A stretch of 64,000 nt of DNA, taken from contig NC_092641.1 of NCBI RefSeq assembly GCF_039555335.1, positions 37,658,548 to 37,722,547 on the forward strand, in the 5' to 3' direction. Position 1 is the first letter of the stretch, and every line of letters starts with the position of its first letter. A program made the translations under genes and the position numbers. Shown piece by piece: positions 1 through 57,200 of the stretch. Source of the stretch: Amphiura filiformis. Its lineage: Eukaryota > Echinodermata > Ophiuroidea > Amphilepidida > Amphiuridae. The notes below the pieces were generated by a model. That model was given only the letters and a program-made list of their open reading frames with translations. It had not been told where the DNA came from and made no database searches.

Positions 1-277
1 AGGGCAGACTGCCCATGGAGAATACCATTTTGTGATTTGTGAGTGATTGGTTGAGAGCTGTACTAACAAGGCTATAAACATCCTCGATAATTGTGTACCT
101 TAGATCACTGAAGTAAGCTGTGGCCTTTGGTGGATTGAATTCATCTTCTATTGATGACACAACATTATCCTTATTCCAAACATGTAATATCAATTGAGTT
201 GATGTTGAGAGATGTGGTATGCCATCTAGTGCTGTAAGAAGAATCCCATCTATGGTCAAACTCAGCTCCCACTGCTC
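1..277 (-). CDS. Exon 56 (partial, runs off the left edge)
   Basis: Phase 0 start, residues about 3101 to the edge. EQWELSLTIDGILLTALDG, STQLILHVWNKDNVVSSIED, TAYFSDLRYTIIEDVYSL. The frame is open to base 1, so the donor or stop lies outside. Beta-rich, continuing exons 53-55. Confidence 0.85.
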
Positions 278-30200: not shown

Positions 30201-33200
30201 TATAATGAGACACAAGCATAATTTCATTCAAAGTCAAAGTGTACAATATTGTAACATGATTTTTTTTTTCAAACCTATATTTGTAATGCTTACCCATGTT
30301 ACAACTTACACCTTAATGAAATCAACCAAGTTTGTTGTATTTGTAGGTCAACAGAGCAATTGCAACATAACAAATGACCTGGAAGTTGTTACTAATATTG
30401 TATCTGCATTTTGGGTAAAGAGTAACAAAATAAAATTTGACAGAAATCATACATCATGTCTTTAAGGTCTATTGAGGCAAGTGGACAAAACTTACATACT
30501 GGCCAACTTTTCTTTTGGTTGAGAAGCTTAGTAGATAAGACAATACATTTTAGTGTTTTAACAAGGGTGAAGTGTGGGACTGTGAGATTGTTCATTGAAC
30601 AAGATATCAAAAAATTGAACTGAACTGTAGAAAACCTGCAAGTGTTAACCTGAGCATGGAAATAGTAGATGAGAAGGAATCACAACGAACTCGATCACCT
30701 GTGACTAATTCCTCTTATCTATTCTTCGTTACAAAGGAAGAGAGCTCAACAAATTCCCTGTTGAAGACACTCACATTGCATGCCGCCATCAGCGTGATCT
30801 GGTAGAATAACTGGAAATTCATAACAATAAATCTTTCTGAACAAACAAATTTTGAACCGGTTGTTGTGACCTTGGTTGATAAAGCGCACTTTTAATGTTC
30901 ATTTAGACTGGATTCTATAAACATTTGCAACAAGTTTCTGCATTTTCAGATGCAGAGAAGTCAAAACAATACAAATATTGGGAAATTTAATCAAAATATG
31001 TTGTATTTTCGACTAAAGGCACTTTTAAAAAAGATTTATATTTTGTAAGGATAATCGTATTTTTGCTGACCCCAAATTTAATTAAAATGTAAAGGTATAA
31101 AACAAGTTCTTCCGGTTGTTTCCGGAAAATGGGAACAGATTCTATAATAAGACAAGCGGAAAATCAATTCTATCAAATTGCCTTCATATGTGCCCCAGAC
31201 TGCCTCTATAGGTAAATTTGCCCCTAAATGTTTCAAATATATGACTTTTTACTTCCAATTTTGGTAAAATGTTGGCTATGTTATCCCATCTGTCCAATAA
31301 TGCATTCATATTTCCTGCCCTTTCCTGCTCACAAGGCCTCATTTAGTCAATAAGCAATGATCGCTTAACTGCAGCCTTAGAATTGCGAATGTCATGTCAT
31401 AGAAATGTTATGTCACCGATGGCCATCGTGATAGGATATAATCCCGATAACAATAGCGGTTGAAGTGTATAGAAGCGTGAATGTACATGTCGGCAATGTG
31501 TTTGGAACTTTGATGATGGTTCGTTGTGATTCCTTCTTATTTCCATGACCTGAGTCATCACTGAGAGTAAATCTGGAAGGACTAAAAATGCTATTTACTT
31601 ACGTAGCATTAATACTAGCACCAATCAAGAAAGTTGACGAGTCATATGTCACATTATATATTGAATATATAATTGGTGGGGTGTTATCAATTGCAAGCGG
31701 AGTTGAGTGGCATACGGTTACTGCCATAGGACCTCCAAATTCCACCTTGTTGAGTGCCCTCACTGAGGAGAAGTAATGTCCATCTGTGAACAAATACAGC
31801 ATAGAGGTTTAAGTCTTTCAAACACAAATTCTTGGGATAGACATTCCCAGTTGTCTATTCCCAGTATTCGCTGTCGTAGTGCACTTTAGTAACCATTGGT
31901 CACTGGTTCAAGCCTGGGCTCATACACCTGTTCCGAATTTGATATACCATAGGCTTTGTGTAGTGATCATTTCGATCAGTGGTTCGTAACAAAGAAAGCG
32001 TGATCCAGTTGACATAGCAACGGTCATATTCTAACATGCACTACGACAGCGAATACATACAATTTACATGTACCCCTGTTACATTGTCATGGACATGATT
32101 TGACCCCTCAATAACCTGGTAAATGAAAATGAGTTTGCAATCCTTCATGTGTCCAATTTCAAGTACCGCTGTTATATTTTCATGGACATGATCCATAAAG
32201 TTTTGGCAAAGGGAGATACCCCCTAAAAATCATAATAGAAGAAAAAAATAAGCAATAATTGCCCTGTGTGGGATGTGCATCTTACTTTTTAGCACAAAAA
32301 ATATAATGTTTTGGGCCCAAATAGGGTACAATTGCAAAAATTTGAGAGCTTCATGTGCACTGGCCAACAGGACCAAAATATGCTTGTCCCCTGACCCCCC
32401 TAAATTTCAATCCTTTAGCCGCCACTGATATGATCTGATCCCTCACTAACCTGACAACTGAATATGAGTTTGCAATCCTTCATGTGTCCACTCAGACATA
32501 TCAAAGAGATGAGAGTGTGGGTCTTTATAGGCCACTGTATCCTCCAGACAGACATCGGTACCTACAGCCCACATGTATCCTAGAACTCCTGTCTCATTGT
32601 CATGGAAACTATCCCAATTTGCTGTTGGAAATAGTTGATTGTGAAAACTATGTTAGAGACTCATTTAATGACAATGTGATCGTCCACCACAAACTCTCAT
32701 AAGGTCTGCAAATATGATTTTGAGTTACAGCACGAAAGTTGTATTCAAGTACAAAGTTCACTCCACTTCTGGAGATTGTATGAAGTTACCCTAAAGCTCC
32801 CGGATTGCTCAAATCGATCACCGGTGATAGATGGAGCAGTTATGAGACTTTCTGACCCTGTTTTGAACTCTTAATGGTAATATATACAGCCCTCCAAACT
32901 AAATATCATATTAGATATACGTCTGCTATAACCATAAATTGTAACTGAGTCAATTTGGGTGTATGGAGAGGTCTACTAACCTGGTCACTGGGGAATACCT
33001 GTTGGCTCAAACTCCATATCTTTATATAGGATAGCCAGGGACCTAGTGCCTTAGAATGACTTCTAGATTAAAATATAAATACCAGTGTACTCTTTAGACA
33101 ACAAATAAGTATTCAGAAGAAGGACTTTGCCTCTGTAGGGCCAGGGAGATGAGTCGAAGTTGATATCCTGTGATAGAAATATTGGATTTTCATACAAAAT

Positions 33201-36200
33201 GGGTGACTTTTCCAGTATAGATGTATGTTTTTTTGTGATAATAAGCATTCATAAGAATTAAATTATCAATAACAATCACTATTATGCCTTTTTTACCAAC
33301 TTTTTCTGGATCTACAAGGGCATTTATTGAATGTAAACAGCCGTGACCTTGGTTGACCTCAGACAGGAAGTAGTTGGTAAAGGAGGTTCTCCAGTGCATA
33401 AATAGCTGTATTTCTTTAAATATTGGTCTAAAAAGGGTTTGATGCATCATAATACCTTATGTGTTACATTCTTTAAACAAATAAGGCCATTTGGGGTCAA
33501 TAAATGCCAAAAACTAATAAAATGAGCACATTTTTTACCTATTTTTGCTCATTATTGGACTAATTAATTAATTTTACCTAATTAAATGTCACAATCTTAT
33601 ATTTGTTTGCATGATATAATCAGTACATAACAAAAGAGCATAGATATGTGAAAAGGAACACCACCTTTGATAGTTTTGGCATTGTTTTGGCATATTTTGA
33701 GATTTTATTTGCACCCCCTAAAAAATTGAAATTTGAAAATAATTAAGTTCTACCTAACGAAATGTTTTGAAATTATTTTCACGGTATCAAATTACTAATA
33801 ACTAATCTAGGATAATACATTCTAATAAAATAACCTAAATTATGATTTGTATTTAGATTTTTAATACCTTTATTGTTATACATTCTTGTTTTCTTTTATA
33901 TTTTAATGTAAACTCATTAAATATTCATGAGCCTAATATGCATATCGAGAACGAAATACCAATTTATTTTTTTTTCATTTTACTTTATGTTTTATATACT
34001 TTCCATTGATACTTGTATCAATAGTACTTGTTTCCATAGTACTTGGTATCCTTATACAAAAACATAATCCTCTAATAAGTGAATGGAATCAGCAGGTATT
34101 AAATCAGTAAAATACCCCAAAATGGCCCGGGAGCTTTAGGGTTAACGGCTACCTCATTAAAGCTGATAATATAAATATGATATAAAACAAGATTAAAAAG
34201 GGGTGACTTTGAGGTTTGTGGTGGACAGATAGTCACAAATATGAATAGAGAGAGACATACATACAGACAGACAGACACCCTGACATAAGGAAAGAAAGAG
34301 AATCATGTTATTGCATATTAAAGAAGTACAACTACAACAGAGTTTTTTTCTGAATCTCATTATTGCAACAATATATTTTCCAGTGAAATTACATTATCCA
34401 AATTTGGGTCTCCACAACCCAAAGGTTGGGAACAGCTGCAACCTGCCATAGACCAATGAACACAGGCTTACCTGCTATGAATGTATTAGACCTGGTGTAC
34501 AGCATGTCTACAACCCACAGGTTGGGAAGAGCTGCAACCTGCCATAGACAAATGAACACAGGCTTACCTGCTATGAATGTATTAGACCTGGTGTACAGCA
34601 TGTCTACAACCCACAGGTTGGGAAGAGCTGCAACCTGCCATAGACCAATGAACACAGGCTTACCTGCTATGAATGTATTAGACCTGGTATACAGCATGTC
34701 TACAACCCACAGGTTGGGAAGAGCTGCAACCTGCCATAGACAAATGAACACAGGCTTACCTGCTATGAATGTATTAGACCTGGTGTACAGCATGTCTACA
34801 ACCCACAGGTTGGGAAGAGCTGCAACCTGCCATAGACAAATGAACACAGGCTTACCTGCTATGAATGTATTAGACCTGGTATACAGCATGTCTACAACCC
34901 ACAGGTTGGGAAGAGCTGCAACCTGCCATAGACAAATGAACACAGGCTTACCTGCTATGAATGTATTAGACCTGGTGTACAGCATGTCTACAACCCACAG
35001 GTTGGGAAGAGCTGCAACCTGCCATAGACAAATGAACACAGGCTTACCTGCTATGAATGTATTAGACCTGGTATACAGCATGTCTACAACCCACAGGTTG
35101 GGAAGAGCTGCAACCTGCCATAGACCAATGAACACAGGCTTACCTGCTATGAATGTATTAGACCTGGTATACAGCATGTCTACAACCCACAGGTTGGGAA
35201 CAGCTGCAACCTGCCATAGACAAATGAACACAGGCTTACCTGCTATGAATGTATTAGACCTGGTATACAGCATGTCTACAACCCACAGGTTGGGAAGAGC
35301 TGCAACCTGCCATAGACAAATGAACACAGGCTTACCTGCTATGAATGTATTAGACCTGGTATACAGCATGTCTACAACCCACAGGTTGGGAACAGCTGCA
35401 ACCTGCCATAGACAAATGAACACAGGCTTACCTGCTATGAATGTATTAGACCTGGTATACAGCATGTCTACAACCCACAGGTTGGGAAGAGCTGCAACCT
35501 GCCATAGACAAATGAACACAGGCTTACCTGCTATGAATGTATTAGACCTGGTGTACAGCATGTCTACAACCCACAGGTTGGGAAGAGCTGCAACCTGCCA
35601 TAGACAAATGAACACAGGCTTACCTGCTATGAATGTATTAGACCTGGTGTACAGCATGTCTACAACCCACAGGTTGGGAACAGCTGCAACCTGCCATAGA
35701 CCAATGAACACAGGCTTACCTGCTATGAATGTATTAGACCTGGTATACAGCATGTCTACAACCCACAGGTTGGGAAGAGCTGCAACCTGCCATAGACAAA
35801 TGAACACAGGCTTACCTGCTATGAATGTATTAGACCTGGTGTACAGCATGTCTACAACCCACAGGTTGGGAAGAGCTGCAACCTGCCATAGACAAATGAA
35901 CACAGGCTTACCTGCTATGAATGTATTAGACCTGGTATACAGCATGTCTACAACCCACAGGTTGGGAACAGCTGCAACCTGCCATAGACCAATGAACACA
36001 GGCTTACCTGCTATGAATGTATTAGACCTGGTGTACAGCATGTCTACAACCCACAGGTTGGGAACAGCTGCAACCTGCCATATACCAATGAACACAGGCT
36101 TACCTGCTATGAATGTATTAGACCTGGTATACAGCATGTCTACAACCCACAGGTTGGGAAGAGCTGCAACCTGCCATAGACAAATGAACACAGGCTTACC

Positions 36201-39200
36201 TGCTATGAATGTATTAGACCTGGTGTACAGCATGTCTACAACCCACAGGTTGGGAAGAGCTGCAACCTGCCATAGACAAATGAACACAGGCTTACCTGCT
36301 ATGAATGTATTAGACCTGGTATACAGCATGTCTACAACCCACAGGTTGGGAAGAGCTGCAACCTGCCATAGACAAATGAACACAGGCTTACCTGCTATGA
36401 ATGTATTAGACCTGGTGTACAGCATGTCTACAACCCACAGGTTGGGAAGAGCTGCAACCTGCCATAGACCAATGAACACAGGCTTACCTGCTATGAATGT
36501 ATTAGACCTGGTATACAGCATGTCTACAACCCACAGGTTGGGAAGAGCTGCAACCTGCCATAGACAAATGAACACAGGCTTACCTGCTATGAATGTATTA
36601 GACCTGGTGTACAGCATGTCTACAACCCACAGGTTGGGAAGAGCTGCAACCTGCCATAGACAAATGAACACAGGCTTACCTGCTATGAATGTATTAGACC
36701 TGGTATACAGCATGTCTACAACCCACAGGTTGGGAAGAGCTGCAACCTGCCATAGACAAATGAACACAGGCTTACCTGCTATGAATGTATTAGACCTGGT
36801 ATACAGCATGTCTACAACCCACAGGTTGGGAAGAGCTGCAACCTGCCATAGACAAATGAACACAGGCTTACCTGCTATGAATGTATTAGACCTGGTGTAC
36901 AGCATGTCTACAACCCACAGGTTGGGAACAGCTGCAACCTGCCATAGACAAATGAACACAGGCTTACCTGCTATGAATGTATTAGACCTGGTGTACAGCA
37001 TGTCTACAACCCACAGGTTGGGAAGAGCTGCAACCTGCCATAGACAAATGAACACAGGCTTACCTGCTATGAATGTGTTATACCTGGTGTACAGCATGTC
37101 TACAACCCACAGGTTGGGAAGAGCTGCAACCTGCTATAGACAAATGAAGACAGACGTACCTGCTATGAATGTATTAGACCTGGTATACAGCATATCTACA
37201 AGGTCTTTATCCCCATTAAATACAGCCATGGAGCCAGGACCATCAATTATTACTCTGAAAAATAGCAAAATATCACAGAGATTAGACTAAAGAATTTCTG
37301 AACTCCACTATATTTGTGGTACATCAATATTCCCAATATTGTAAAAATTCAAGCTTTGAGATGCCATTTATCATTCACTATTGAACCTTTGCCAATCAAT
37401 GTCCTGATTTACAACAATATAGTAACAAGGCAATATCTGACGAAAAGACATGTATGATCTAACATCCATCAGTGTAAGCCTGGTGTAAGCAATTGAAACT
37501 CAATTCTTAAACATATTTAGTCCGGAATATCTCAGTCTACTTCTCTCCAATTTTCCACTAACAGGTCCACATACAATTGAGGGGGGGTAAAAGCTTTTCT
37601 AAAAACTAGAAAAAAGTAAAGAATTTTTACTTCAAATATACTGTATCTGCTCATATGAGTGGGTTTTTTTCCTGTTGATTATGATTGTTTTAAAATCACA
37701 TTGCAAAATTAGTATTGTGTATCAGTTCAATGTCTTCGGCATGCTACAATCATGTCACCATGTGCATGTGAAGAACATTTCCATCATTGGATTGGTAGTA
37801 GCATGATCATGTCATAGTTACCAATAAAAATTACCTGTGTGTACACATTTTGTAGTTGTATCATTGTTTTATGGACCTCATAATTGTGGTGGCCTGCGCG
37901 CAGCCAGAAGAGCTGTGCACACGCTGTGCACACGCCACCCCAATTATGAGGTCCATTCACTCATCATCATTGTGTCTTTAAAAAGAAACAATGATGATGA
38001 GTAATCTCTCATCATTACAACATAATGATGCAAAAACAGTAGTGTGGACTTGGTCGAAGTCAATTGATTGGTCAACCACCATGATGCAGATGACCTTCAA
38101 ACCTCTGTGTGTAAACCCCATGAATATATGTCTTACCTGCTATTTGGTAATGGTGTTTCAGACACACAATGTTGATGCCACTTGGGATGTGTATAGGCTG
38201 TACATGCTTCATGCCTAAAATCCTCACTCTTAACATTAGCCAATGGACCAGGCACGGGAGGAGTGAAATCAGCCAATATCGGCACAGAGGTAATGATGTT
38301 TTTGTAGCCAATATAGTTCAGTAGTTGCAAATTATAGTAGTACAGGTTGTTATGGACTAGGTAGACCGAGTTGTGTTTGAACTCAATTGCATGTCCAATG
38401 CCTAGGCGCTCATAATGTTGGTAAAAACCAGCCTACAAGACATGAATACAAACAAATTTAAATTGACAATGAAATTTAATTGATGTTCTATTTCTTTCTT
38501 CAAGATTATCTTTTCAGATTCTCTTTTCAACAAATTTTGCAAAGTGTTGTTTTCAACATCAACAATTTGAGGCATTTAATTTTTTTAGCTTTAACTATAG
38601 CCAGACTTTGAAATAATAAACACCACATCTGATGTGTGGGACTTGTTAGACACAGGCATTCAAATGATCTATATATTATCAGTCTATGGCTGCTACTTAC
38701 TTTATGCAAGAAGATGTCATGTCCTTCTATTACAGTCAGGATTTCACATATAGATTCAGGATAGTCAAAGTTGAAACTGAGACATTTCTGTGCAGACACA
38801 TCAAGGCAAGCCTGGGCACAGCCTTCTGCTGTGTGTTGTGGGCTAGTAGTCAAAGGAGTAGTGGCTAGGCGACCTGTTCGAGCTGTGGTGAATTGATCCA
38901 AAGCGGAACCTGCAATACAAAATGGCATTTATATATCACCTTTAGAAGAATTATTGAGTGCATTTATACTTTGTCCATTATAAGCCATACCTCCTGATCC
39001 AGGATTAGTCATTACTTTGTCCATTATTAGCCATACCTCCTGATCCAGGATTAGTCATTACTTTGTCCATTATTAGCCATACCTCCTGATCCAGGATTAG
39101 TCATTACTTTGTCCATTATTAGCCATACCTCCTGATCCAGGATTAGTCATTACTTTGTCCATTATTAGGCATACCTCTTGATCCAGGATTAGTCATTACT

Positions 39201-42200
39201 TTGTCTATTATTAGGCATACCTCTTGATCCAGGATTAGTCATTACTTTGTCCATTATTAGCCATACCTCCTGATCCAGGATTAGTCATTACTTTGTCCAT
39301 TATTAGGCATACCTCTTGATCCAGGATTAGTCATTACTTTGTCCATTATTAGGCATACCTCCTGATCCAGGATTAGTTATTACTTTGTCCATTATTAGCC
39401 ATACCTCCTGATCCAGGATTAGTCATTACTTTGTCCATTATTAGCCATACCTCTTGATCCAGGATTAGTCATTACTTTGTCCATTATTAGCCATACCTCC
39501 TGATCCAGGATTAGTCATTACTTTGTCTATTATTAGACATACCTCCTGATCCAGGATTAGTTATTACTTTGTCCATTATTAGGCATACCTCCTGATCCAG
39601 GATTAGTCATTACTTTGTCCATTATTAGGCATACCTCCTGATCCAGGATTAGTCATTACTTTGTCCATTATTAGGCATACCTCTTGATCCAGGATTAGTC
39701 ATTACTTTGTCCATTATTAGCCATACCTCCTGATCCAGGATTAGTCATTACTTTGTCCATTATTAGCCATACCCCCATTATTAGGCATACCTCCTGATCC
39801 AGGATTAGTCATTACTTTGTCCATTATTAGGCATACCTCTTGATCCAGGATTAGTCATTACTTTGTCCATTATTAGCCATACCTCCTGATCCAGGATTAG
39901 TCATTACTTTGTCCATTATTAGCCATACCTCCTGATCCAGGATTAGTCATTACTTTGTCCATTATTAGGCATACCTCTTGATCCAGGATTAGTCATTACT
40001 TTGTCCATTATTAGCCATACCTCCTGATCCAGGATTAGTCATTACTTTGTCCATTATTAGCCATACCTCCTGATCCAGGATTAGTCATTACTTTGTCCAT
40101 TATTAGGCATACCTCTTGATCCAGGATTAGTCATTACTTTGTCTATTATTAGACATAACTCCTGATCCAGGATTAGTCATTACTTTGTCCATTATTAGGC
40201 ATACCTCCTGATCCAGGATTAGTTATTACTTTGTCCATTATTAGCCATACCTCCTGATCCAGGATTAGTCATTACTTTGTCCATTATTAGCCATACCTCC
40301 TGATCCAGGATTAGTCATTACTTTGTCCATTATTAGCCATACCTCCTGATCCAGGATTAGTCATTACTTTGTCCATTATTAGCCATACCTCCTGATCCAG
40401 GATTAGTCATTACTTTGTCCATTATTAGCCATACCTCCTGATCCAGGATTAGTCATTACTTTGTCCATTATTAGCCATACCTCCTGATCCAGGATCAGTC
40501 ATTACTTTGTCCATTATTAGGCATACCTCTTGATCCAGGATTAGTCATTACTTTGTCCATTATTAGGCATACCTCTTGATCCAGGATTAGTCATTACTTT
40601 GTCTATTATTAGACATACCTCCTGATCCAGGATTAGTCATTACTTTGTCCATTATTAGGCATACCTCCTGATCCAGGATTAGTTATTACTTTGTCCATTA
40701 TTAGCCATACCTCCTGATCCAGGATTAGTCATTACTTTGTCCATTATTAGCCATACCTCCTGATCCAGGATTAGTCATTACTTTGTCCATTATTAGCCAT
40801 ACCTCCTGATCCAGGATTAGTCATTACTTTGTCCATTATTAGCCATACCTCCTGATCCAGGATTAGTCATTACTTTGTCCATTATTAGGCATACCTCTTG
40901 ATCCAGGATTAGTCATTACTTTGTCTATTATTAGACATACCTCCTGATCCAGGATTAGTCATTAATTTGTCCATTATTAGGCATACCTCCTGATCCAGGA
41001 TTAGTTATTACTTTGTCCATTATTAGCCATACCTCCTGATCCAGGATTAGTCATTACTTTGTCCATTATTAGCCATACCTCCTGATCCAGGATCAGTCAT
41101 TACTTTGTCCATTATTAGGCATACCTCTTGATCCAGGATTAGTCATTACTTTGTCCATTATTAGGCATACCTCTTGATCCAGGATTAGTCATTACTTTGT
41201 CTATTATTAGACATACCTCCTGATCCAGGATTAGTCATTACTTTGTCCATTATTAGGCATACCTCCTGATCCAGGATTAGTTATTACTTTGTCCATTATT
41301 AGCCATACCTCCTGATCCAGGATTAGTCATTACTTTGTCCATTATTAGCCATACCTCCTGATCCAGGATTAGTCATTACTTTGTCCATTATTAGCCATAC
41401 CTCCTGATCCAGGATTAGTCATTACTTTGTCCATTATTAGCCATACCTCCTGATCCAGGATTAGTCATTACTTTGTCCATTATTAGGCATACCTCTTGAT
41501 CCAGGATTAGTCATTACTTTGTCTATTATTAGACATACCTCCTGATCCAGGATTAGTCATTAATTTGTCCATTATTAGGCATACCTCCTGATCCAGGATT
41601 AGTTATTACTTTGTCCATTATTAGGCATACCTCCTGATCCAGGATTAGTCATTACTTTGTCCATTATTAGCCATACCTCCTGATCCAGGATTAGTTATTA
41701 CTTTGTCCATTATTAGCCATACCTCCTGATCCAGGATTAGTCATTACTTTGTCCATTATTAGGCATACCTCCTGATCCAGGATTAGTCATTACTTTGTCC
41801 ATTATTAGCCATACCTCCTGATCCAGGATCAGTCATTACTTTGTCCATTATTAGCCATACCTCCTGATCCAGGATTAGTCATTACTTTGTCCATTATTAG
41901 CCATACCTCCTGATCCAGGATTAGTCATTACTTTGTCCATTATTAGGCATACCTCTTGATCCAGGATTAGTCATTACTTTGTCTATTATTAGACATACCT
42001 CCTGATCCAGGATTAGTCATTACTTTGTCCATTATTAGGCATACCTTCTGATCCAGGATTAGTCATTACTTTGTCCATTATTAGCCATACCTCCTGATCC
42101 AGGATTAGTCATTACTTTGTCCACATCAGTCCATGGCACAATCTGATCACCCCAGATTCCTCCTCCAAACCCAACACCTTCCTGCTGAGAAATAATCTCT

Positions 42201-45200
42201 GAATCATCATAAACCACAGCCGATGCAGTCAGAATGCTAGGATGACTGGTAGTAGAGAATGCTGGCTCAATTCTCCCTGTTGGTACAGTCAGGTCATAGG
42301 TGGGCAGGACACATGTCACAGTTGCTGTGCCTCCAGCAGAGTTGTGAGCAGTGACGGTGAAGTACAATGGTACCCCACCTTTCAGTTTCTGTTTAAAAAC
42401 AACAAAAGATTATTATTTTTTATGTCTTTTAGAAAGTATCATGATATAACCAATATTTAATAATCAAGAATAAAAAATCAAAGCTTAAGTCACATATATT
42501 ACATCATATTTTGTGTTTTAATGAATAAAGTATCCTTAATTAAAACTAACAAGATTTGCTCACCTTGAGTGAAGCAGCATTTTTTCTTCCACAATGTTAT
42601 TAGGGTCTTTTGTGTTTGATATTGATCAGAGGTCACTGAATCATGACATATTCATGTGACTAATTTAACTTACGTAGTGCAGTATAATGTGGAAAGTTTG
42701 TACTGCTCTTTTGAAGATTAATTTTCTTCTCGGCTTTGCAAACATATTGTGATTGATTAATATTATATTCTGCTGCAAAGCATAGAACACACACCAATTC
42801 ACACATACCCTAGCAATAATAGATGGTGATCCAGCAAATTCCTCTTCATCAACAACATCTCTTCCACCAGGCACTGTACCCACACTGTATGTGAAAGTGA
42901 CTTGACTCTTATCATCTGAAGCAGCAATCTCAAGCTGGAAGGCAGGCTCTGTGTAATCAAATCCTGGAACCTGCTCTACTTTGCATTTCCTGGTGGAGCC
43001 TGGTACTGAAATTCCGCCAGTGGATCTTTTACGACTCTATTGGAAAAACCAAAATAAAACCAAGAAATTAATTTTAGAGACTTATTTTATGAACAAAAGA
43101 AATGCTGTGTAAGCATAAGCAGTCAAGTTAGCTCAATTGATAAGGGGTTCAACTATGGTACAAGAGCTTGCGAGCTCAAACCCTGGCAGTGATATACTTT
43201 ATTGTGTAAAAATTAAGTTTGCTTGAAATTCCCCTGGAAAAGGAATTTGCTGCTTATTGTCTCGTAACCTGTACAAAACACGGGGAGCTGATCCTGGTTG
43301 CAAAGGTCAATTTTGGATTGTCTAGGGTGTGCACTTCTGAGCTGCAAGTCCAAGGGCTGTTGTTGAATAGTTTTTGGAATGATGTGTGGCCGTAGTGGTC
43401 AGCGACAACCTGTAATGTGTGCTGAGGCTTATAGATCAACATCTAGGCATTGTGCCTTTTTTATAAACAAAGGCACAGATTCCCTTCCTTTGTCCAGGAA
43501 GGTTATTTTTATGTTAATAACTCTGACAAGAGATAACAATCACAGACGCGTGATGCATCACATGGGCATCTGTGTTGCCATATAATGCTTAGCATATACA
43601 CTCACATGTGCACCAAATTTATTGTAGCATGTTTGTATATGATTACATGAGTTTGATACCAACCCCTGATGTAGTTGCCTCTACAAACTGTGGAGGTGAC
43701 TTGTCCGGATCCTTGGTGTGTATATCAAAGACATTTTCTTCTTCTGCAGGTGCTGAATATTGCCAAAGACGCACACTGAGTAAAGTCTTCTTACCAAAGA
43801 GGAATGTGTCAACAGTTAACTTGGCATAGAGGTACAGCTCTATGGGAATCAGTTTCATGTCCATGCGGATTCTGGAAAAAAAGTGTGAGGTGGTTATAAT
43901 ATATCTCTTTTTTCAAACAATATAACATTGTTTTTATACATTTTAGGCTAATGAAAATTGATGTCCAGTTTTCATGTTTTTGGCAACGGAATGAGGCAGA
44001 TTTTTCATTATTCATTATTTTTTGAACTTTCATTTTTTCATGATTTTAAATTTTAAAAAGTGGGCATTTATACAGTACTTAATGGCTATTACCTATATTG
44101 TTGATCAAAGACTATGTCAAAACAGGTATTAATGTTAAGATCATCTTTACAGACATTTTGCAAGACATTTTGAGAGTTTCAATTTGATTATTTCCTTCTC
44201 AATTCGGAAATAATTTACTTTTTTTATGAAAATAATGAAAGTTTTGACCAAAATGAAAAGGCGACGCATCGGTTGCCAAGAAACTTGGAATTGACTTTCA
44301 TTTATAGCCTTATGAATTTCAACTATTTCCAAAATACCTTTATTTTGTGTAGTTCTTTGCCTGTGTAGATGCACAATTGTAATTAGGCCTATACATTATC
44401 TCAAATTGTCTACTCAACAAGTTCCTCATTTACTAGCCAGCATTGAGCCATATATAAACTTCCCAAACTAAATATAAAAAATACAATTGTCCAAACTCTT
44501 ACCCCACATCAAGTGGGAACTTAGCAAATGATAACTCAGCCACCGTTGGAAATTCAGCATAGAGGATTTGAGCTCTTAATTCCAGCTCCCCATAGATGAA
44601 TCTTCCAATGGATAGACCTCCATTCACAGATGCACCAACTCTTGGCTGTAATCCAGCCTAAAAATAATTAGAAAAAGAAAATTTAGAATATAAGTACAGT
44701 ACATTGGAATGAAATGTGATCAATTGCACTAACTTTTATGATGCATCCAAATTCCTAGATCCAGCACTGTAAGTCCCAAACCAATTGTCATGTTTACATA
44801 TGATTTATATGTTAAGAGTTACAATGAGTCTGTCTTTAGGAGGGTTAAACAACTTAATTATGATATGCTGTAGTGTAGTGAAATGCACTCCATGTCAAAT
44901 GACTATCTGTCCAAGAAAGTCAAGAGATAAGAGAAGTTACTTAACCTCTGGAAAAAAAGTCTGATGAAAAGTCTACACCTAGCAGCAAAACATCCTAACA
45001 GTCAAACATCTATGGTTCTTTTTTCACTTCTTATTTCTTTGAAGAAAGTATGATGCATACATGTGTATTTAAAAAAATCATTTTTGTCTTATATATGTGA
45101 CCATCCATCTCAAACCGCTCGTAAAGTCGGCAAATTGTATTTAGAGTTACAGTCCAAAATGTGTATAAAGCTTGTATTCATAATATACCTAATAATTGTC

Positions 45201-48200
45201 CTACAAGTGTCTCATTTCAGTCCAGTCAAATAACAATCTTTAATCCTATTGTTAAAGAGGATAATAAGCTTATACTTATAGTAAATAGCTTTAGTCTTTG
45301 TTTGCTTTGGCTAAATCCTGTTCAAGTGGTGACTTAACCAACAATTAACAATGAGAGGACATTCCTGAACCCCGTTGACTTGGGGATGATTTGAAGTGAC
45401 CGCCAATTATGACCATTTGATATTTAATACCAGCAATGTAGAAAAAGAGATATATTGTAGCACCAAAATAATGTACCTTTTTACTGAAGTAGCAAAGTTT
45501 AACAAGCCATAACCCGCTTCTGGATATTGTTTGAAGTCAAATGATATATCATTGTAAAGCTTATGATATATATTTTCTAAATACGCAAGAAAACAAAATT
45601 GACCAGGGGCCGACTTTACGAGCGTTTCGATGTGGATGGTCACATATTTAGAGTAAGCACTGCTAATGTAATAATAATATATTAAATAAGTATTCAACAG
45701 AAAGACTAATGTGCTTTTCCAGATTATGTATAATAACCCTGTTAGCACATTTCCAATAGGCATCATCTTTATACAGTCACACTCAACAACATTGGGCTTT
45801 TCCATTTGAAATACACACATGGAAGATTTTGGAAACTTGTTCCATATAGAAAGTATGAATTTCAAATAGAATTAGCACATTAGGCAGATCCATGATCAAA
45901 CAAATAATATGAACACAAGTACTCAAACGCAGTAAACTGGTTTTACACAAACTCATTGTACAAAACTGGAATGATGCATATTATTATATTGAATGGAAAA
46001 ATAAATCATAATCATGAATTCATGTACCATAACGGAGTGCCAAATTTAGTGCAAAGGAGGAAAATTCCGGTGGAAGATTCAATTTGAAGCTTTCTCTGAG
46101 TGTATATAAAATTCAAATGGACCCACCTAATGTGCTAATTCCATTTAAAATTCATACTCCCTTATGGAACATATTTCCAAAATCTTCCACAAGGGTAATG
46201 TGGAATTCAAATAGAATAGCCCATTGCAAGCAATTGCACAAATCTGACTGTCTTTGCCTATTTTACATCATAAAACCTTAGTTGGATAAATGTTGTGAAT
46301 AAGGATTTCCAATTTACTGAAATAAGCCTGGCCTTTTGGTACAAATATGGGATTGAGTCCCAAACATTTTGCATAGTTCTTACCTGTGTCTTCATAGTAA
46401 GCAGTGACACAGATACTGGGATAGACAACTCAAAATAACCATCACCACTGGCAGCTGTTAAATAAATATTGGGAAAAAATGATGTGAATCATTAATGATT
46501 GATCTCTTAGTTCCTCATTAAGAAGCCACTTTTGAACTATAATTTGCTGTAGAAGTAGCGATGTAACAGGATTAATTAACAATGCATTGGATCAAAACTA
46601 GTTTTGAGTGTATTGCCCTGCACTATAAGTAGGTTTAACTTGTCACCTGTCATGCCTGTGTATGTGTGCAATCATAGATTTGAATACAATACCGCTCTTT
46701 TCATATACACTTATCGTATATGTGTGAGTGAAACATACATGGATTCAGCATAATGTGAAATTTCTACAGAATTATTACAGTTCTTTATGCCTATTCTTTA
46801 AAAAACAAATGGTGCGATGCAGAGGTATAGCATACATTTAGTGCCGGGCAATACATTCACAAATAGTTTTGACCCATCACTATGGTAATTGTCTCGAGAC
46901 AGCAGGAAAGCACAACAACGCAAAGATTAGACTCCGCATTTCCCCCACGATCATGAGGACCATTTAATACACATAAGCTTATTTATAATAATTTCACAAT
47001 CTCATAGAAATTAAGACTATATTGAGATAATAACAGATTTCATATCAATTAAACAAATTATATACATTGAGATGATTAATTGCAGCAAGCATTTGGAATT
47101 ATTTATCATCTTCATATAAATCAATAAATACACGAATTATTGGAAAGATGTGTACAAGCCAACCATACAGGCTGGACAAACAAAAGTTGACTTCTGAATC
47201 ACATTTAACCAAATTTCATCTTAAGCAAATCTTAAGCATATTTTAAACAGATAAATCTTTGGATCAAACAGAGGATTGGATTGGAAAACAGCATTTTTAA
47301 CCGCAATTAAATAATTAGAAATCTCCAAAAGAATAAACAATGCCAACACTAGCAAACGAACATTTTGTATTCAGCAAGATACGGCATCAATGCTTAAACC
47401 ATTTACTGATATATAGTCCACTGGTATTGACAACCAAGTAAATAAAGATACTCCAAATAAGCAACAAAGCATTTATAACCCTGGTATAAAAACGCAGTAG
47501 AAAGGGAGGAAAGCATGAAGGCAACCAATAGCCCACTATAAACCGCAGTAGAAAGTGGAGACAATCTACTGACGAGATTCTTCAGGTTTTGAAGAAACTC
47601 CACCACCCTCAATAAAAACGCAGTAGAAAGTGGAGACAATCTACTGACGAGATTCTTCAGGTTTTGAAGAAACTCCATACAAAGCAACCAAAAGCCCAAT
47701 AAAACCAACCAATACCATAAAGCGCAGTAGAAAGTGGAGACAATCTACTGACGAGATTATTCAGGTTTTGAAGAAACTCCATACAAAGCAATCAATAGCC
47801 CAATAAAACCATCCAATACCATAAAACGAACGCAGTAGAAAGTGGAGACAATCTACTGACGAGATTCTTCAGGTTTTGAAGAAACTCCATACAAAGCTTT
47901 CAATAGCCCAATAAAACCATTCAATACCAGAAAGCGCGGTAGAAAGTGGAGACAATCTACTGACGAGGTTCTTCAGGTTTTGAAGAAACTCCATTCAAAG
48001 CAATCAATAGCCCAATAAAACCAACCAATACCATAAAACGCAGTAGAAAGTGGAGACAATCTACTGACGAGATTCTTCAGGTTTTGAAGAAACTCCACCA
48101 CCCTCTATATAAAAAACGCAGTAGAAAGTGGAGACAATCTACTGACGAGATTCTTCAGGTTTTGAAGAAACTCCACCACCCTCTATAAAAACGCAGTAGA

Positions 48201-51200
48201 AAGTGGAGACAATCTACTGACGAGATTCTTCAGGTTTTGAAGAAAATCCATACAAAGCATTCAATAGCCCAATAAAACCAATCAATACCATAAAACGCAG
48301 TAGAAAGTGGAGACAATCTACTGACGAGATTCTTCAGGTTTCGAAGAAACTCCCCACCCTCTATAAAAACGCAGTAGAAAGTTGAGACAATCTACTGACG
48401 AGATTCTTCAGGTTTTGAAGAAACTCCACCACCCTCTATAAAAACGCAGTAGAAAGTGGAGACAATCTACTGACGAGATTCTTCAGGTTTTGAAGAAAAT
48501 CCATACAAAGCATTCAATAGCCCAATAAAACCAATCAATACCATACAACGCAGTAGAAAGTGGAGACAATCTACAGACGAGATTCTTCAGGTTTTGAAGA
48601 AACTCCCCCACCCTCTATAAAAACGCAGTAGAAAGTGGAGACAATCTACTGACGAGATTCTTCAGGTTTTGAAGAAACTCCCCACCCTCTATAAAAACGC
48701 AGTAGAAAGTGGAGACAATCTACTTACGAGATTCTTCAGGTTTTGAAGAAACTCCATACAAAGCTTTCAATAGCCCAATAAACACATTCAATACCATAAA
48801 ACGCAGTAGAAAGTGGAGACAATCTACTGACGAGATTCTTCAGGTTTTGAAGAAACTCCATACAAAGCAACCAAAAGCCCAATAAAACCAACCAATACCA
48901 TAAAACGCAGTAGAAAGTGGAGACAATCTACTGACGAGATTCTTCAGGTTTTGAAGAAACTCCATACAAAGCAATCAATAGCCCAATAAAACCATCCAAT
49001 ACCATAAAACGAAGTAGAAAGTGGAGACAATCTACTAATGATATTCTTCAAGATTTCAAGAAATTCCATACAAAGCCTCTATTTTTAAGCATAAAGCAGC
49101 ATAATTGGACATACCATTTTATTGGAGTATCTTTAACCATATTTAGTTACTGAATCACCCTTCCAGTTTTTGGGAGGGTGGGTGGGATTTTTTGGTCCAT
49201 CAAGATCGAAGGAACAATTGCAAGTGCATCACTAGGAGAACTATGGACATAACAAAGGAATTAAAAAATAAGACGGGAGACCTGAATGGCTGCACACCAC
49301 TAAAGTGACAGCTGACTGGACAGAAAAACTGAGCTTGTTGCTATAACAACATAACAACAACCCCTAAATTAAAACTGACTTGACCAGGATACCAAAACAC
49401 TTTAAGTGTACTTGAGAATGCTCAAGTGGGAATAAGAGGATAAGCCTCTACACCTAGATGCACATGACAGCCTAATGTCCCCTGCTGCTGAGACAATCTA
49501 GTTTTTAAAAGATTTGCAACTTTAAAAAACGGAATTAATCCAGTTATATCACTACTTATATGGCAAATTTGGTTAAAGCAATATATTGCCTACTGTACAA
49601 AATTCTGAAGTTTGCAAAGTTGGTTCTTGTAGTTATAGTTCTAAATTATTCTGTTGTTAAATACTCTAGCATTTTATATTGGTTATCAGGAGTGGGCTTT
49701 TTGCTTCTTTCTACTTTCTATTTCTTGCTATTTTTTCTTCCTTTTAACTATAAAAAGTCTATGTGCATGTTTTATTGGTAAGGAATGAAAAGTCAAGTGT
49801 GACTTGAATGACTCAAGCATATAGTACTGACTATTGATCGTTGATGTATACTAACAGGCTAAAATGTGCAACTGCACATCCCCGCTAGATTTTGGCAAGG
49901 GGGACTCCCCCCGTAAAAATCACAATTAGGAGACAAAATTAAGCAATAATTGCCCTGTGCATCTTATTTTTAGCACGAAAAAAACTAAACACACTATGTT
50001 TTGGGCCCAAAAAGGGTACAATTGCAAAATTGTTTGCGCTTTGCATGCATTGGCCCATCAAATAGCAGAAAACACCTGAATTTGTGGCTAAAATAGTCTG
50101 AAATTGAATTGAATTTTAATGCATCCACCGCCACTGTATACATCCCCTATGAATGACATTACCTTAATCTTCCACACATGAGATGTAGATTTCAAATGGA
50201 GTCACCCATTCAGGTAAACCCATTTGAAATTCCCACTCCTTGTGTGGTAGATTAAGGTCATGTCTTCCATAGGGGTGTATGGATTTCAACTGAAATAGAC
50301 CAATAACAAGCCTTAAAGCACTTACTGAATCTAATTTCCAAGATTCCACCCAAAGTTTGTGAATAGCTGAACTCAAAGAACTCTATCTCTCTTCTTGGTA
50401 TAGGAATGGAAGCACCAAGAGTGATGTCAAATGAAGTGAAAATATCCTCCAAGTCACCAGAAGTGAAGGTGTCAATCACTTCTTCTATCTGTAATTAGGA
50501 TAAGACAAGCTTCATTTCAAGTGTGTGCACTACTGATTGATTCATCTGTCTTTAAGAACTATTTTGATTGGTTACAAAGAGGGTTATATCATGTATTGAG
50601 CCAATCACAGATATGGTAAGAATGGTCAGTAGGGATTAAGCTTAAAATTGCTAAGATATCTAACAGCTCAATTTTAATTAGTTACTCAGATGATTATGTC
50701 ATGTAAATAACCAATCAGTGGCTCTGTAAGAAAGGCAGTGGGGCCCATAGGGATAATATGACATCAGTAGAGTAGACAAAGGGAAAAATTAGTAGCTTGT
50801 AATGATTAATGCACTGTCATGCCATGAATATCCATTCACACACCTTACACCTTTGTTTCCAATGGACATTTTATTGTGAAATGCCATTGTACAAGGAATA
50901 CATAAAAAAAAATTCCACATAGCCCCCGAATGAAAAGTATTTAATTATCTTTGTAATCACTCAAAAAGCATTTGGTGTGAATTTTACATCCGAACTAGAG
51001 GCTATTAAATTTTACGAGCCTTTTTATTTTACATGTAAAGCCTATGGGGTGACGATTAGAAATGGACGGCAATATTGAAAAACCCTCATTTTGGGCCATT
51101 TTAGACACTAAAATGCCCATAAAAAAATAATAGCCTCTAGTTCGGATGTAAAATTCACACACAATGCTACCTGAGTGAGTACAAACATAATTAAATACAT

Positions 51201-54200
51201 TTCATTCGGGGGCTATATCAAAAACAAAAAATGTCCTATACCCTAATGGTTATGGAACAAAGGTGTTAGTGGTTATGGTGAAGATGAGCTGCAGAACTGA
51301 TTAAAACAAAAACCATCAGAATCTTAGTGAGCTAATTTGGAATGGAAACAATGTCTTGATGTCAGACAAATGGCAGTAGGGACTTAGAGAACCAATGAGA
51401 TCTTTGAAATCATAACATACCAGAGATGGAGCTAAATGTCCACAAAATTGTTGCGTAGAGCCAAAACGTTATATGATTTAGAAGAATTTCATGTGGAAAT
51501 TAAGCTGAAACTGAAGCAGGTGTTCTAAATAAATGTCAAACAGGAATAAATTGGGTTCTTAACCACTGCAAATTACATCTTATATTTCATCAATACCAGA
51601 GAGTTGCTGATGCTCCTTAGAATTGGCAATTTATATTCTATGTACGCAACCTAGTATGAGGGTGATTTTGTACGTATGCAAATCAGGGGAGCTTTCAGGG
51701 GACATCCGAGAGATCCAAGCTACTGCACTGTCTCCTACATTTGTCATATTTACAGCACAAGATGCATTGGACAGCTGTATCTCTATTCATTCATTGTACA
51801 CGAACAAGCATTTTGGAAACCATTTTTGGTAGATGGAGTATAGAAGCTTAAACTTACAATAACTGCAAAGAGTTGTTTCAATTCCTTCATTAGGTTGAAT
51901 GCTAACACTGGATCAACATTCTGCAAATCTAGCATGGCTTCTAATTCACCTATGGTCAACTTACAATAACAGCAAAGAGTTGTTTCAATTCCTTCATAAG
52001 GTTGAATGCTAATACTGGATCAATATTCTGTAAATCTAGCATGGCTTCTAGTTCACCTATGGTCAACTTACAATAACTGCAAAGAGTTGTTTCAATTCCT
52101 TCATTAGGTTGAATGCTAACACTGGATCAACATTCTGCAAATCTAGCATGGCTTCTAGTTCACCTATGGTCAACTTACAATAACAGCAAAGAGTTGTTTC
52201 AATTCCTTCATTAGGTTGAATGCTAACACTGGATCAATATTCTGTAAATCTAGCATGGCTTCTAGTTCACCTATGGTCAACTTACAATAACTGCAAAGAG
52301 TTGTTTCAATTCCTTCATAAGATTGAATGCTAACACTGGATCAATATTCTGTAAATCTAACATGGCTTCTAGTTCACCTATGGTCAACTTACAATAACTG
52401 CAAAGAGTTGTTTCAATTCCTTCATAAGGTTGAATGCTAACACTGGATCAACATTCTGCAAATCTAGCATGGCTTCCAGTTCACCTATGGTCATGTTTGC
52501 TATCTTCTGAGTCAAAGCATTGGCACCTTTATCTGAAATTAAAAAAATAGTACTCTTAGATATCTTATTGTAAGTAGTAAAAGTCCAATTTAAACATTCT
52601 TTATTATGGTTTGGGTAGGTATGCGCAGCTGAGATTTTGAAACCATACCCCAAAATATACATTTTGACAACAAGAGACCCAAACTTATACTAATTTTTGG
52701 TTAATTCTGGAATTTTTTTGCAAATTTTGCTTAAAGTTACAGCAATTTTGCTGAAATCTGCACTTTTCCAAGCTTTGGGGGAAAATTTTGAAAAACACCC
52801 CATCGCTAAACCAGTTTTCTGTAACTGCATCCCAAAGTTATACCAAAAAGGCTGAAAATGCATTCCCAACACATCCCTGTACCCAACTATCCACTAAAGC
52901 CTTTTGTTATATGCACATATCTTCAATCAGTCTTTACTTTATGTCGAACCTGATTTGTTTAGTATGTTTAGTATGTTCTTGGCTGCCCTCTTTAAAGGTG
53001 ATTTCACTTAATAATTATTTCCATCTTATAATTGTCCCAATATTGACTATAAACAACTTTCTACATGTGTGCACAAGCAAAAAAAACAAAGTCCTGTCAT
53101 ATTTTAAGCATGCAGCAACATGTTACATACCTGTGAGGCCTCCTCCAACCACTGATAGACCTTGCCATACACCAGAAGTAGTCCCACTGCCTTTAAGATT
53201 GAAGATGTCCTCACTACCTGTATATAATGACATCACAATACAGATTTACTATAAGGGAAAGTGAAGATACCACATTTGATTCATCTATATCTATGAATAT
53301 TAAACCTAACATCCCATACTTTTTTTTTGCTATTGAAATGAAAACAAGACACAAAAAGGAGAATAGATGAGCCAAGAAGTCACTTGGGACACAGGTAGCC
53401 ACAGGGGTTTTGCTGTCTCCAGCCAATAATTCCATGCATATATATGACTTAAGGTGATTTTGTCATGACATCACATGGCATGCATGCATGCGCAGTGGTT
53501 TTCCGTGATAGATTTTGTTTGATTAGGCAGTGTTAGGGTTAATATAGGCTTCAATCTACAAAAATAGATATTCATTAACTATCATTGACATGGTAAAACA
53601 CCAGATAAAGTTCAAAAACAAATTATGGGTTCTGTTGGCATTGTTAGGGCTCAAATTGGCAACATTGGGATAAGTTGAAGCCTGATTAATCTATCCAATG
53701 CTCATTACCAAAGCATTGTTGTCCTTATTCTGGTACTATTGAATGTATTGAAATAGTTAGTCACTTCACTCTTTACTGGCAGATTTATTTTTCTTTAGTC
53801 TTTATATTATGTCATTCAGTTCATATTTTCAAATCAATATACCAGCAAATTGCCCCACCAGGAGTTGAACCAGCAATCTCTCTGCATGGAAATACAACAA
53901 CTTGATGGATAAGCACAAGTAACATAATGTGTTGAATTGACAAACTGTTTCCAATTAATGTTTATGCACACACTCATGATAAAAGCTGGTGAGCACTCAT
54001 TAACTAGCAAACAACTTTACATCTCAAAAGACACTCACTAAATACCCATCACTCCTCATGACAATGTGAAACTACTTACTGCTTGGGTCATTGTCCTCAA
54101 GTACAAACAACCCCATTTGTCTTCTGCTGGTAGGTTCATCTGGAGCTACATATGGGACTGGGAGCAAACAAAACGAGCAGTGACAGGTTTGAGATTAAAG

Positions 54201-57200
54201 TATGATTTATTCTTTTATATCAATTGGGCTATTCCAGTTGAAATCATACATCCCTATGGAAGACATGACCTAAATCGCCCACACAGGGAGTGTGAATTTC
54301 AAATGGGGTTATCTGAATGGATGACTCCATTTGAAGTTTACACCACATGAAAGATTAAGGTCATATCTTCCATAGGGGGTGTGTAGATTTCAACTGATAT
54401 AGTCCATTATCAAAAGATCACTGGACGGCCTACACTTTTAAATGACCAAAGTAGTCATCGCTGCTGCAGATATGATTCTTCTTCATATTCCAATATCTGT
54501 AGTGGTATAATTACCAGCTGGAATTTGAAACAACCTGATTCAAAAGCACTATAATTCCTGGCAATGTCCTGTCACACTAGCAATGACTGGCCAAGATACG
54601 TATCCTGACTATTGCATAATAATAACTAGGACAACTGGGCTAGGAAACCCCTGTGAAACTTCACATAGGACCCACTTTTCAGTGAAATGTTCAAAAGACC
54701 CCATTTTGGAAAGACCTCATATGTGCTTGTGGCCCCCTGAACATGACTAACACGGGGACTAACAAAACTGCTAAGAGGTTTTTCCAGCCCAAGGATGTAT
54801 GTACCTCTTGATTGTTAGCAATTTCAACCAATTGCCATAAATGACTTAGATAACAAATAACAATTTGGTCCCCAGAAAACAATGCAGGCTGATTTTTATA
54901 GTATTACAAATGCACTTATACCAAAGAGTATTATCCTCCTCTTTTAAATTCCTTGTGATATTTGATTCCTTACCTTTACTTGCAGGATCCAGGGATGCCA
55001 TCATGTTATCTTCAGCAGACAAGGTAGTAATGTTTCTATCCAATAAATCCTGGAAATATTTCTTCACTTTATCATCGATGGAGATTGCATCAGAATCAAC
55101 AGGACTACCTTCCGTCATACTGGAATCATTTTCTGCACTGTAATATAGTACACAATTTAACATTATTGGTATTATAATAAACCTACTAATTGGTAAAGAA
55201 GCATTGTCTAAATTCTTGCAATTCTCTATTCTGGAAATTTAACTTCCTTGCTCCGACTGGTCTTAGTCAGGCAACTGAGGAGAAGTTTTGGTTTAAAACA
55301 TTACAAAAAAAAAGCAAATGATACTTACACATCCTCCTCGCAAGTACCATGCAGTGGCAGTGGAGTGACGTTATAGGGCAGGACACATATGCTCCCCAAT
55401 TGATTTGAAAAATTTTAAATCCCATAGCAAAATTGCCAAAAATGGCTTGTGGCCCCCCCATAAGAACTGGTCCCACCCCCACATCATGGTCGGTGCACCC
55501 GATGACCTACTCTTCACCACTGTTCAGTGGTAATAATGTTAACATTGTAATAATGTTGAATAACTTCTTATGACCTTGGAATAATGTTTTTAACTTGGGC
55601 ACTTATATATATACTGCTGATCATTTGCACCAAATTTCATGAAAATAACTTAAAAACTAAGGTCCACATGATCAATTTCAATATGATGCCTTGCTGCTAT
55701 TATTTTCATATTCAGGTTATATGGGAGAGGTAGGGGGAGAAGAGCAAAATTGAACATGCATGTATATATAAACATAAAAAGAATATGCAATAAAGTCTTG
55801 GGGATACAAACAAACAAACAATAATAGCTACTGAGATGTATCAACAAACTGAGTAGAATCTACCTTGTTGGAGGAAAATGGAATATGCGCAATAATGGCT
55901 AGTCAAGTTAAATCCGTACACCCCCCTTTGGAGGACATTGCCTTAATCTTCTATACAGGGAGTGTGAATTTCAAATGGGGTTACCTGAATGGATGACTCC
56001 ATTTATAATCTACGCCCCCTGTGTGGGAGATTAGATTGTGTCTTCCATAGGGAATAGCCAAATGAAATAACAGACTTACGCTTGCCGTCGTCTGCGACTT
56101 CTTGCAGGCTCACTGCAATCTTGAACAGTAATCATTGCACTCTTTACTATGGTTGCAGGCTCACTGCACACCCCATCAAGACACAGCATTACACCCAAGT
56201 CAATGTGGTATATGAGACGGCCTGGTTTCATGATGCGATATCGCAATGTCACATGACCAATGTCTTTAATGTGATCCACACCTGTTTAATTGGGAAAATA
56301 TATCATGAAATAAATGTGAAATAACAACATAACATTCCCTGAGTGCACTAATAAATGTGATATGTAGTCTGCACCAAATAGTCATGAAATAGACTCTTTT
56401 CATGCTCATTCACCTGTAGTAAAGGCTTTGAGCATGTGAAATAGGGAAAAGTTTTAGCATAACAAGGAGCAAGCCCAGAAATCTCAGTGTAAAAACTGTC
56501 GATCATCTGCATAACAAGGGACAACGTTAATAAGAGCCAACACTCTTTATATCAATTTAGTTGATGCCTGGTTTCTCATGAAGAGAATTCTTACTGGAAC
56601 TGAAATATCATCTTTCTGTGCATGTGCCAAGATTTCTTTGTTTCTTTTTCTTGTTGTTTATTTGTAAAGGTATTTAAAATGGTTGAAACTTTGTTCTCAC
56701 AAGATTATTTCTATGAAACATTGTTCTCACCAGATTATTTCTGTGAAACTTTGTTTTCACATTATTTCTGTGAAATCTTGTTCTCACAACATTATTTCTG
56801 TGAAACTTTGTTCTCACATTATTTCTATGAAACTTTGTTCTCACAAAACTTGATTAAACTTTCCCAAAAATAAGCACCAGCACAAACATTACAATGATCA
56901 CCTCTCATCTCCAAAACTGAAAATACTTTCCAAGAACTAAGGTTATAACTTACCAAAATGGAATCCAGTATTCAAAGACTCACTATAAACCCAATTTTCA
57001 AATCCTAAAGTGAAAGAGGCTCCACAAGAATCTAGTCTCATCCAGACTTGAAATGATCTTGTAGTTATTCCTAGATCCATTGGCAGACAGCATCCCAGGC
57101 TAAGACATGATTGGTCAGTTGCACAATAGGATGTCAAACCTTTGGGTATGAAGACTGAAGAACAACCTACCAAATATGGAATAGAATAGCATATGTAAAA

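Follow-up and report, generated by a model that had tools for sequence, protein, structure and literature searches.

Tandem arrays spanning exon ends and 5' splice sites in one large brittle star gene, probable echinoderm counterparts of lancelet mirages

Based on a scan with Tandem Repeats Finder (TRF), three tandem arrays, each beginning inside a minus-strand exon and crossing the 5' splice site (donor) of that exon, were found in a stretch of 64,000 nt from the brittle star Amphiura filiformis (contig NC_092641.1, positions 37,658,548 to 37,722,547), hereafter called the window. The window contains one large minus-strand gene, which in a protein search was identical to the annotated A. filiformis proteins P0002 and P0004 and had homologues in a starfish, lancelets, an acorn worm and molluscs. 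A third annotated protein, P0009, agrees at 90% with the rough gene model and at 91-100%, in pieces, with the window DNA; the query of that search was the first 1089 of the 1296 model residues, without the last three pieces. Pfam matches, to SRCR and EGF, were obtained for two of the nine window pieces scanned, and fibronectin-III (PF00041) is listed for P0009 and for many other matches from that protein search. A phage collection searched with one exon of the host gene gave no match. The gene model is an approximation that leaves out exons with low scores. It conflicts with P0009 at two or more boundaries: for exon 5274-5023, P0009 indicates an end near 5065, and for the exon start at 12056, a position of about 11997. 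All counts on donors and acceptors and all splice-site scores given here are based on this model of 51 exons. The host gene, the arrays and the exons concerned are as follows, in window positions.

68..63027, minus strand: the portion of the host gene inside the window, with 51 model exons (approximate) and with EGF and SRCR domains; P0004, P0002 and P0009 were recovered as annotated pieces
52393..52532, minus strand: exon 11, a model exon and the parent of array C; match to starfish P0003 from 52494 on
51851..52493, minus strand: array C, a 107-nt unit in six copies (99 nt of the 3' part of exon 11 plus GTAAGTTG); first donor (first intron base) at 52392; TRF 107 nt, 6.0 copies
42091..42388, minus strand: model exon, parent of array B
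38967..42123, minus strand: array B, a 46-nt unit in 68 copies (33 nt of exon end plus 13 nt of intron); first donor at 42090
37160..37254, minus strand: model exon, parent of array A
34414..37201, minus strand: array A, a 96-nt unit in 29 copies (42 nt of exon end plus 54 nt of intron); first donor at 37159; TRF 29.0 copies
32451..32621, minus strand: exon joined after array A; its join to the first donor gives FIA-A-NWD, as in homologues

An earlier sequence-only reading of this DNA had described the three arrays with these unit lengths and copy numbers (107 nt x6, 46 nt x68, 96 nt x29), and both TRF and the donor spacing confirm them. Its division of the units into exon and intron parts was borne out for array A (42+54) and array C (99+8), and is corrected for array B from 32+14 to 33+13; its exon numbering is off by one in places relative to the present model. 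Array A contains 29 donors spaced by exactly 96 nt, and array C contains six spaced by 107 nt. In array B, which TRF reported as two pieces of 17.5 and 51.1 copies, 67 donors were found by pattern, with one gap of 92 nt and one of 64 nt, and another pattern gave 68 unit starts. With the exon end marked by a slash, the boundary reads CAG/GT in all 29 units of array A (28 donors are GTAAGC and one is GTACGT), and GAG/GT in 66 of the 67 pattern-found sites of array B, the remaining one being GAG/TT. In array C it is ATT/GT in six of six, and therefore no AG is present there.

Smaller, diverged copies of exon ends and donors lie elsewhere in the same gene.

32092..32155, minus strand: single diverged copy of the end of exon 32621-32451 and its donor at 32450, 40 exon and 24 intron nt, offset 335 nt
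18320..18360, minus strand: diverged copy of the end of exon 18974-18776 (donor 18775), 41 nt made of 38 exon nt and GTA
8456..8550, minus strand: second, diverged copy of the region of donor 8633, 11 nt of exon and about 84 nt of intron

The copy at 32.1 kb, which is absent from the earlier reading, spans its donor and scores 96, against 35 for the best of 200 shuffles; the copy at 8.5 kb also spans its donor (79.5 against 34). The copy at 18.3 kb scores 54 against 40.5 and barely spans the donor, since 38 of its 41 nt lie on the exon side and are followed by GTA only. Thus the two extra copies that the earlier reading placed at 8.5 and 18.3 kb are both present, the second scarcely crossing its donor. 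That reading's wider statement, that donor-spanning events have recurred independently with differing unit lengths and sequences, is supported by the arrays, the extra copies and the duplication scan described below.

The founder junctions of the arrays were read by comparing the first copy with the second and the last with the penultimate. The string shared at the junction is TTGT (4 nt) in array A, TGGACAAAGTA, an 11-nt direct repeat flanking the founder, in array B, and a single T (1 nt) in array C. Judged by these junctions, where intron meets exon at shared strings of 4, 11 and 1 nt, the three founders resemble ordinary duplications at short homologies, of the kind expected from polymerase slippage or end joining. 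The unit may then have been multiplied by unequal exchange or slippage, as suggested by a block of 13 units in array B that recurs identical and head to tail (from 41617 and again from 41019), the equal spacing and the mixed variants.

When the model exons from 57166 to 37160 are joined via the first donors of arrays C and B as far as array A, a frame of 868 amino acids (aa) without a stop results, and joining of the exons from 63027 to 52393 gives 608 aa, also without a stop and overlapping the former. Naive joining of the exons from 31783 to 17456 gives stops in all three frames, and the claim of a continuous frame is therefore limited to the exons up to array A. If translation continues beyond the first donor, it runs into a stop after 8 codons in A, 10 in B and 2 in C. 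Past array A the joined sequence is FIA-A-NWD, the same as in starfish P0003, and A-NWD is kept in lancelet P0005 and P0010 and acorn worm P0012; a single motif copy precedes A-NWD in all four homologues looked at (starfish, lancelet and acorn worm). P0001, a relative of the array A exon, likewise has one copy. The place of array C is covered by one homologue only, starfish P0003, which has one copy and then joins on. Undisturbed splicing would be consistent with the open frame and with the junction conservation at A and C. The spliceosome may still use the first donor, so that all downstream copies are intron and the change is nearly neutral. Duplications spanning a donor could persist because the correct site remains the first to be met. 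A duplicated acceptor would be less well tolerated because the wrong site would come first, and a purely exonic duplication because it alters the protein.

The variation among units, read from one haplotype, was compared between coding and other frames. In the exon parts of array C, eight of nine substitutions are synonymous (expected fraction 0.28, P=0.0003), against 2/9 and 0/9 in the other two frames; in those of array A, three of four are synonymous (P=0.06), giving 11 of 13 for the two together. The exon parts of array C differ by 4.0% on average, close to the heterozygosity of 3.22% estimated for the sequenced individual of the species in the available text of PMC11310086, and three of its six units encode isoleucine, as in the starfish homologue, where the present exon has valine. 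This almost wholly synonymous variation in two arrays suggests that the arrays copy live, selected exon alleles. More tentatively, in a species with 3.2% heterozygosity the units could have been copied from different alleles of the exon, which would explain the near-exclusively synonymous variation in the exon parts of A and C. In its full form, which we regard as possible and hold with clearly less than even confidence, the arrays would lengthen as the live exon edge is copied again and again, and would archive past alleles, with protein-filtered variation in the exon parts and unfiltered variation in the intron parts. With its three large arrays, a probable fourth and three relics, the host gene would then be a hotspot of this growth. 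If true, such arrays would be readable records of allele history inside introns.

The probable fourth array (D) lies just past window position 1. P0009 continues past the window at its low end and closes with eight tandem repeats of 61 aa (residues 1105-1593; 183 nt if ungapped), the first of which continues a conserved stretch common to P0040 and P0042. With the exon end placed at LQ/V, variable cells number 3/320 on the exon side and 17/168 in the rest (p=3e-6), or 3/40 against 9/21 by columns (p=0.002); with the exon end at MTQ/V the cells are 2/208 against 18/280 (p=0.002; by columns p=0.055). The repeats are probably another donor-spanning array read as coding sequence. This array is a lead only, because the boundaries were chosen after the repeats had been seen and because it is known from protein alone. 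Such arrays break gene annotation, and among the three annotated pieces found, P0002 and P0009 are affected: P0002 begins inside array C, reads two units as coding and ends eight codons past the first donor of array A. According to the accessible part of PMC11310086, the gene annotation combined evidence from transcriptomes and protein similarity with ab initio prediction.

Taken together, the arrays are likely to be echinoderm mirages, that is, minisatellites born when a short tandem duplication chanced to span an exon 3' end and its 5' splice site. Several results weigh against this interpretation. First-donor use is something we infer from the open frame and the conserved protein junctions, and the protein junction at array B falls in a stretch where the homologues do not align. 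The choice of the first site is not obvious, since 28 later donors of array A score 10.9 and the first donor 9.1 (with a matrix trained on this gene). The annotated P0002 treats units of array C as coding. In the lancelet globin BflGb6 the edge units are left out of homogenisation; here, a clear excess of divergence in edge units over inner ones is confined to array A, where the first unit differs from the consensus at five positions and the last at four (inner median 1); in array C the values are 1 and 3 against 4, and the first unit of array B shows 0. In the exon parts of array B none of five substitutions is synonymous, a sixth change at the unit edge being left unscored, which counts against the archiving of alleles in particular and lowers the pooled figure for the three arrays to 11/18 (P=0.003). 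Finally, donors are hit more often than expected. At a single threshold for all loci (a single shuffled window yielded no segment although a lower threshold was applied), the duplication scan found 11 local loci, the copies at 8.5 and 18.3 kb not among them; four span a model donor, none an acceptor, and seven are interior to introns. Random placement of the founders predicts 0.64 donor hits (P of four or more=0.003), a post hoc figure, and under a crude survivorship null, in which placements that break an exon or acceptor are barred, 0.76 are expected (P=0.005) and the excess remains.

This excess is an argument for a donor- or transcription-linked process, such as R-loop formation or replication stalling, that creates tandem duplications at 5' splice sites; the earlier reading had proposed a process tied to the donor. 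We consider such a process unlikely. The founder test favours it, but three of the four donor hits are the arrays that prompted the question, and the absence of acceptor hits is not unusual (0.65 expected, P=0.51). Local copies occur at six of 51 model donors and at one of 51 acceptors (Fisher p=0.11), or at six against none when the acceptor at 20495, which adjoins a TGAT simple repeat, is set aside (p=0.03); however, random intron points carry such copies at 82/1000, a rate not distinguishable from that of the donors (Fisher p=0.43), although a few long arrays carry much of the weight among these interior points. No GC skew common to the arrays was seen in 2-kb windows, a strong skew being present at the 46-nt array only, and the R-loop signature was therefore rejected. 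Furthermore, mirages in lancelets also occur at acceptors, as the available portion of PMC3087553 reports. The donor excess is suggestive at most; a splicing filter would yield the same asymmetry between donors and acceptors, and no special donor-directed process is needed.

Alternatively, the units of arrays A and C may be spliced in, now or recently, as translated repeat exons, which we regard as improbable. The synonymous bias in array C would fit such use, as would the reading frame, in which GTAAG followed by 102 nt (34 codons) can serve as an in-frame exon, and annotated P0002 reads it so. The 96-nt unit of array A equals 32 codons, is open over 28 units and has an acceptor-like site scoring 5.9. 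On the other hand, the acceptor in array C scores 2.0, below the weakest model acceptor (3.6), and cassette exons with acceptors of their own were rejected for this weakness. All three variable inner-unit columns in the intron part of array A would change the protein if translated, the homologues have a single copy, and the annotation behind P0002 blends transcripts, homology and ab initio prediction (PMC11310086, as far as its available text goes).

Maintenance of the arrays by selection for decoy donors or for intron growth, also raised by the earlier reading, is very doubtful. All 29 donors in A and all six in C retain GTA and the surrounding bases, but these two arrays have too few variable columns for a test of selection. 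In array B the donor nonamer is less well kept than the rest of the unit (34/585 against 36/2405 non-consensus cells), one GT has been lost and position 6 of the intron varies without constraint; because of this drift selected decoys were rejected, and use of a decoy beyond any first donor leads to stops. That the arrays are assembly artefacts is hardly credible, as the differences among units are ordered, old copies that have since diverged lie at 32.1, 18.3 and 8.5 kb, and nanopore reads commonly exceed the length of arrays of 0.6-3.2 kb. The published assembly, if it is the source of the window, was made from nanopore R9.4.1 reads with a structural QV of 26.88 before haplotype removal, so that copy number may be off, but also with about 100x long-read coverage and short-read polishing (PMC11310086, in the part available).

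Other repeats in the window were recorded. A complex interior array at 47538-49076, away from splice sites in the intron between exons 50488-50326 and 46454-46384, has units of about 75, 78 and 104 nt and a higher-order period of 253 nt, and an interior minisatellite of about 118 nt at 9180-9641 is rich, by eye, in TGACCTC-like motifs. At 20500-20760, a TGAT tetranucleotide run with an 84-nt repeat adjoins the acceptor of the exon starting at 20495, for which it apparently provides the upstream tract. A dispersed palindromic element resembling GGGCTATTCCAGTTGAAATCC..., perhaps a miniature inverted-repeat transposable element, was seen by eye in several introns (about 17170-17330, 20130-20280, 50150-50310, 54230-54400 and 58060-58250). 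Two adjacent SRCR exons at 59512-61364 closely duplicate one another, and the sequences at their two acceptors are also similar.

The earlier reading knew of no described class with this layout, but one exists. In lancelets, tandem repeats of exon-intron boundaries in the Adh3, globin (BflGb6, BflGb9), TnC and PGBD5 genes have been named mirages; both exon edges can be affected, and reverse transcription PCR suggests normal splicing (PMC3087553 and PMC3902484, from the portions available). As in these amphioxus mirages, the minisatellite-like unit contains the exon-intron boundary; in A, B and C the first unit and its copies alike carry the donor. Unit length varies in both animals, from 10-72 bp in Adh3 and 150-160 bp in the globins (PMC3087553) to the minisatellite-sized 46, 96 and 107 nt of the brittle star. 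Many, but not all, units retain AG/GT splice signals, which is also true of the brittle star arrays. Length polymorphism and somatic instability are further traits of the lancelet class. In contrast to the lancelet cases in those portions, the host is an echinoderm, several arrays occur in one gene and are known here from sequence alone, up to 68 copies are present rather than the three and six of two BflGb6 haplotypes, and all arrays sit at donors whereas the lancelet cases include acceptors. Intron gain by tandem duplication across a splice boundary, described for the potato RdRp gene in the available part of PMC4974935, is similar, and AG/GT occurs in the units of A and B; in the brittle star, however, whose homologues were compared as proteins, no new intron is evident, and existing introns appear to have grown at their 5' ends. 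Internal tandem repeats in human segmental duplications (PMC2812944, same limit) likewise show that minisatellites can sit at an exon-intron boundary and change gene structure, but there the units average 30 bp in four copies, half lie in coding sequence, and the hosts are recent paralogues.

The class is thus already on record, and the brittle star adds to it a new case of large size and clustered arrangement. The literature searches, confined to one library, listed no echinoderm mirage, which is not proof of absence. The novel elements are that an echinoderm has large mirages in a cluster, that a further array probably lies just beyond the window, and that nearly all variation in the exon parts of two arrays is synonymous. 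The arrays are also natural constructs in which one productive donor stands against 5, 28 or 67 near-identical and sometimes stronger copies, and they offer a direct test of first-donor choice. Set beside the lancelet genes, they suggest that boundary-spanning minisatellites are not a lancelet peculiarity.

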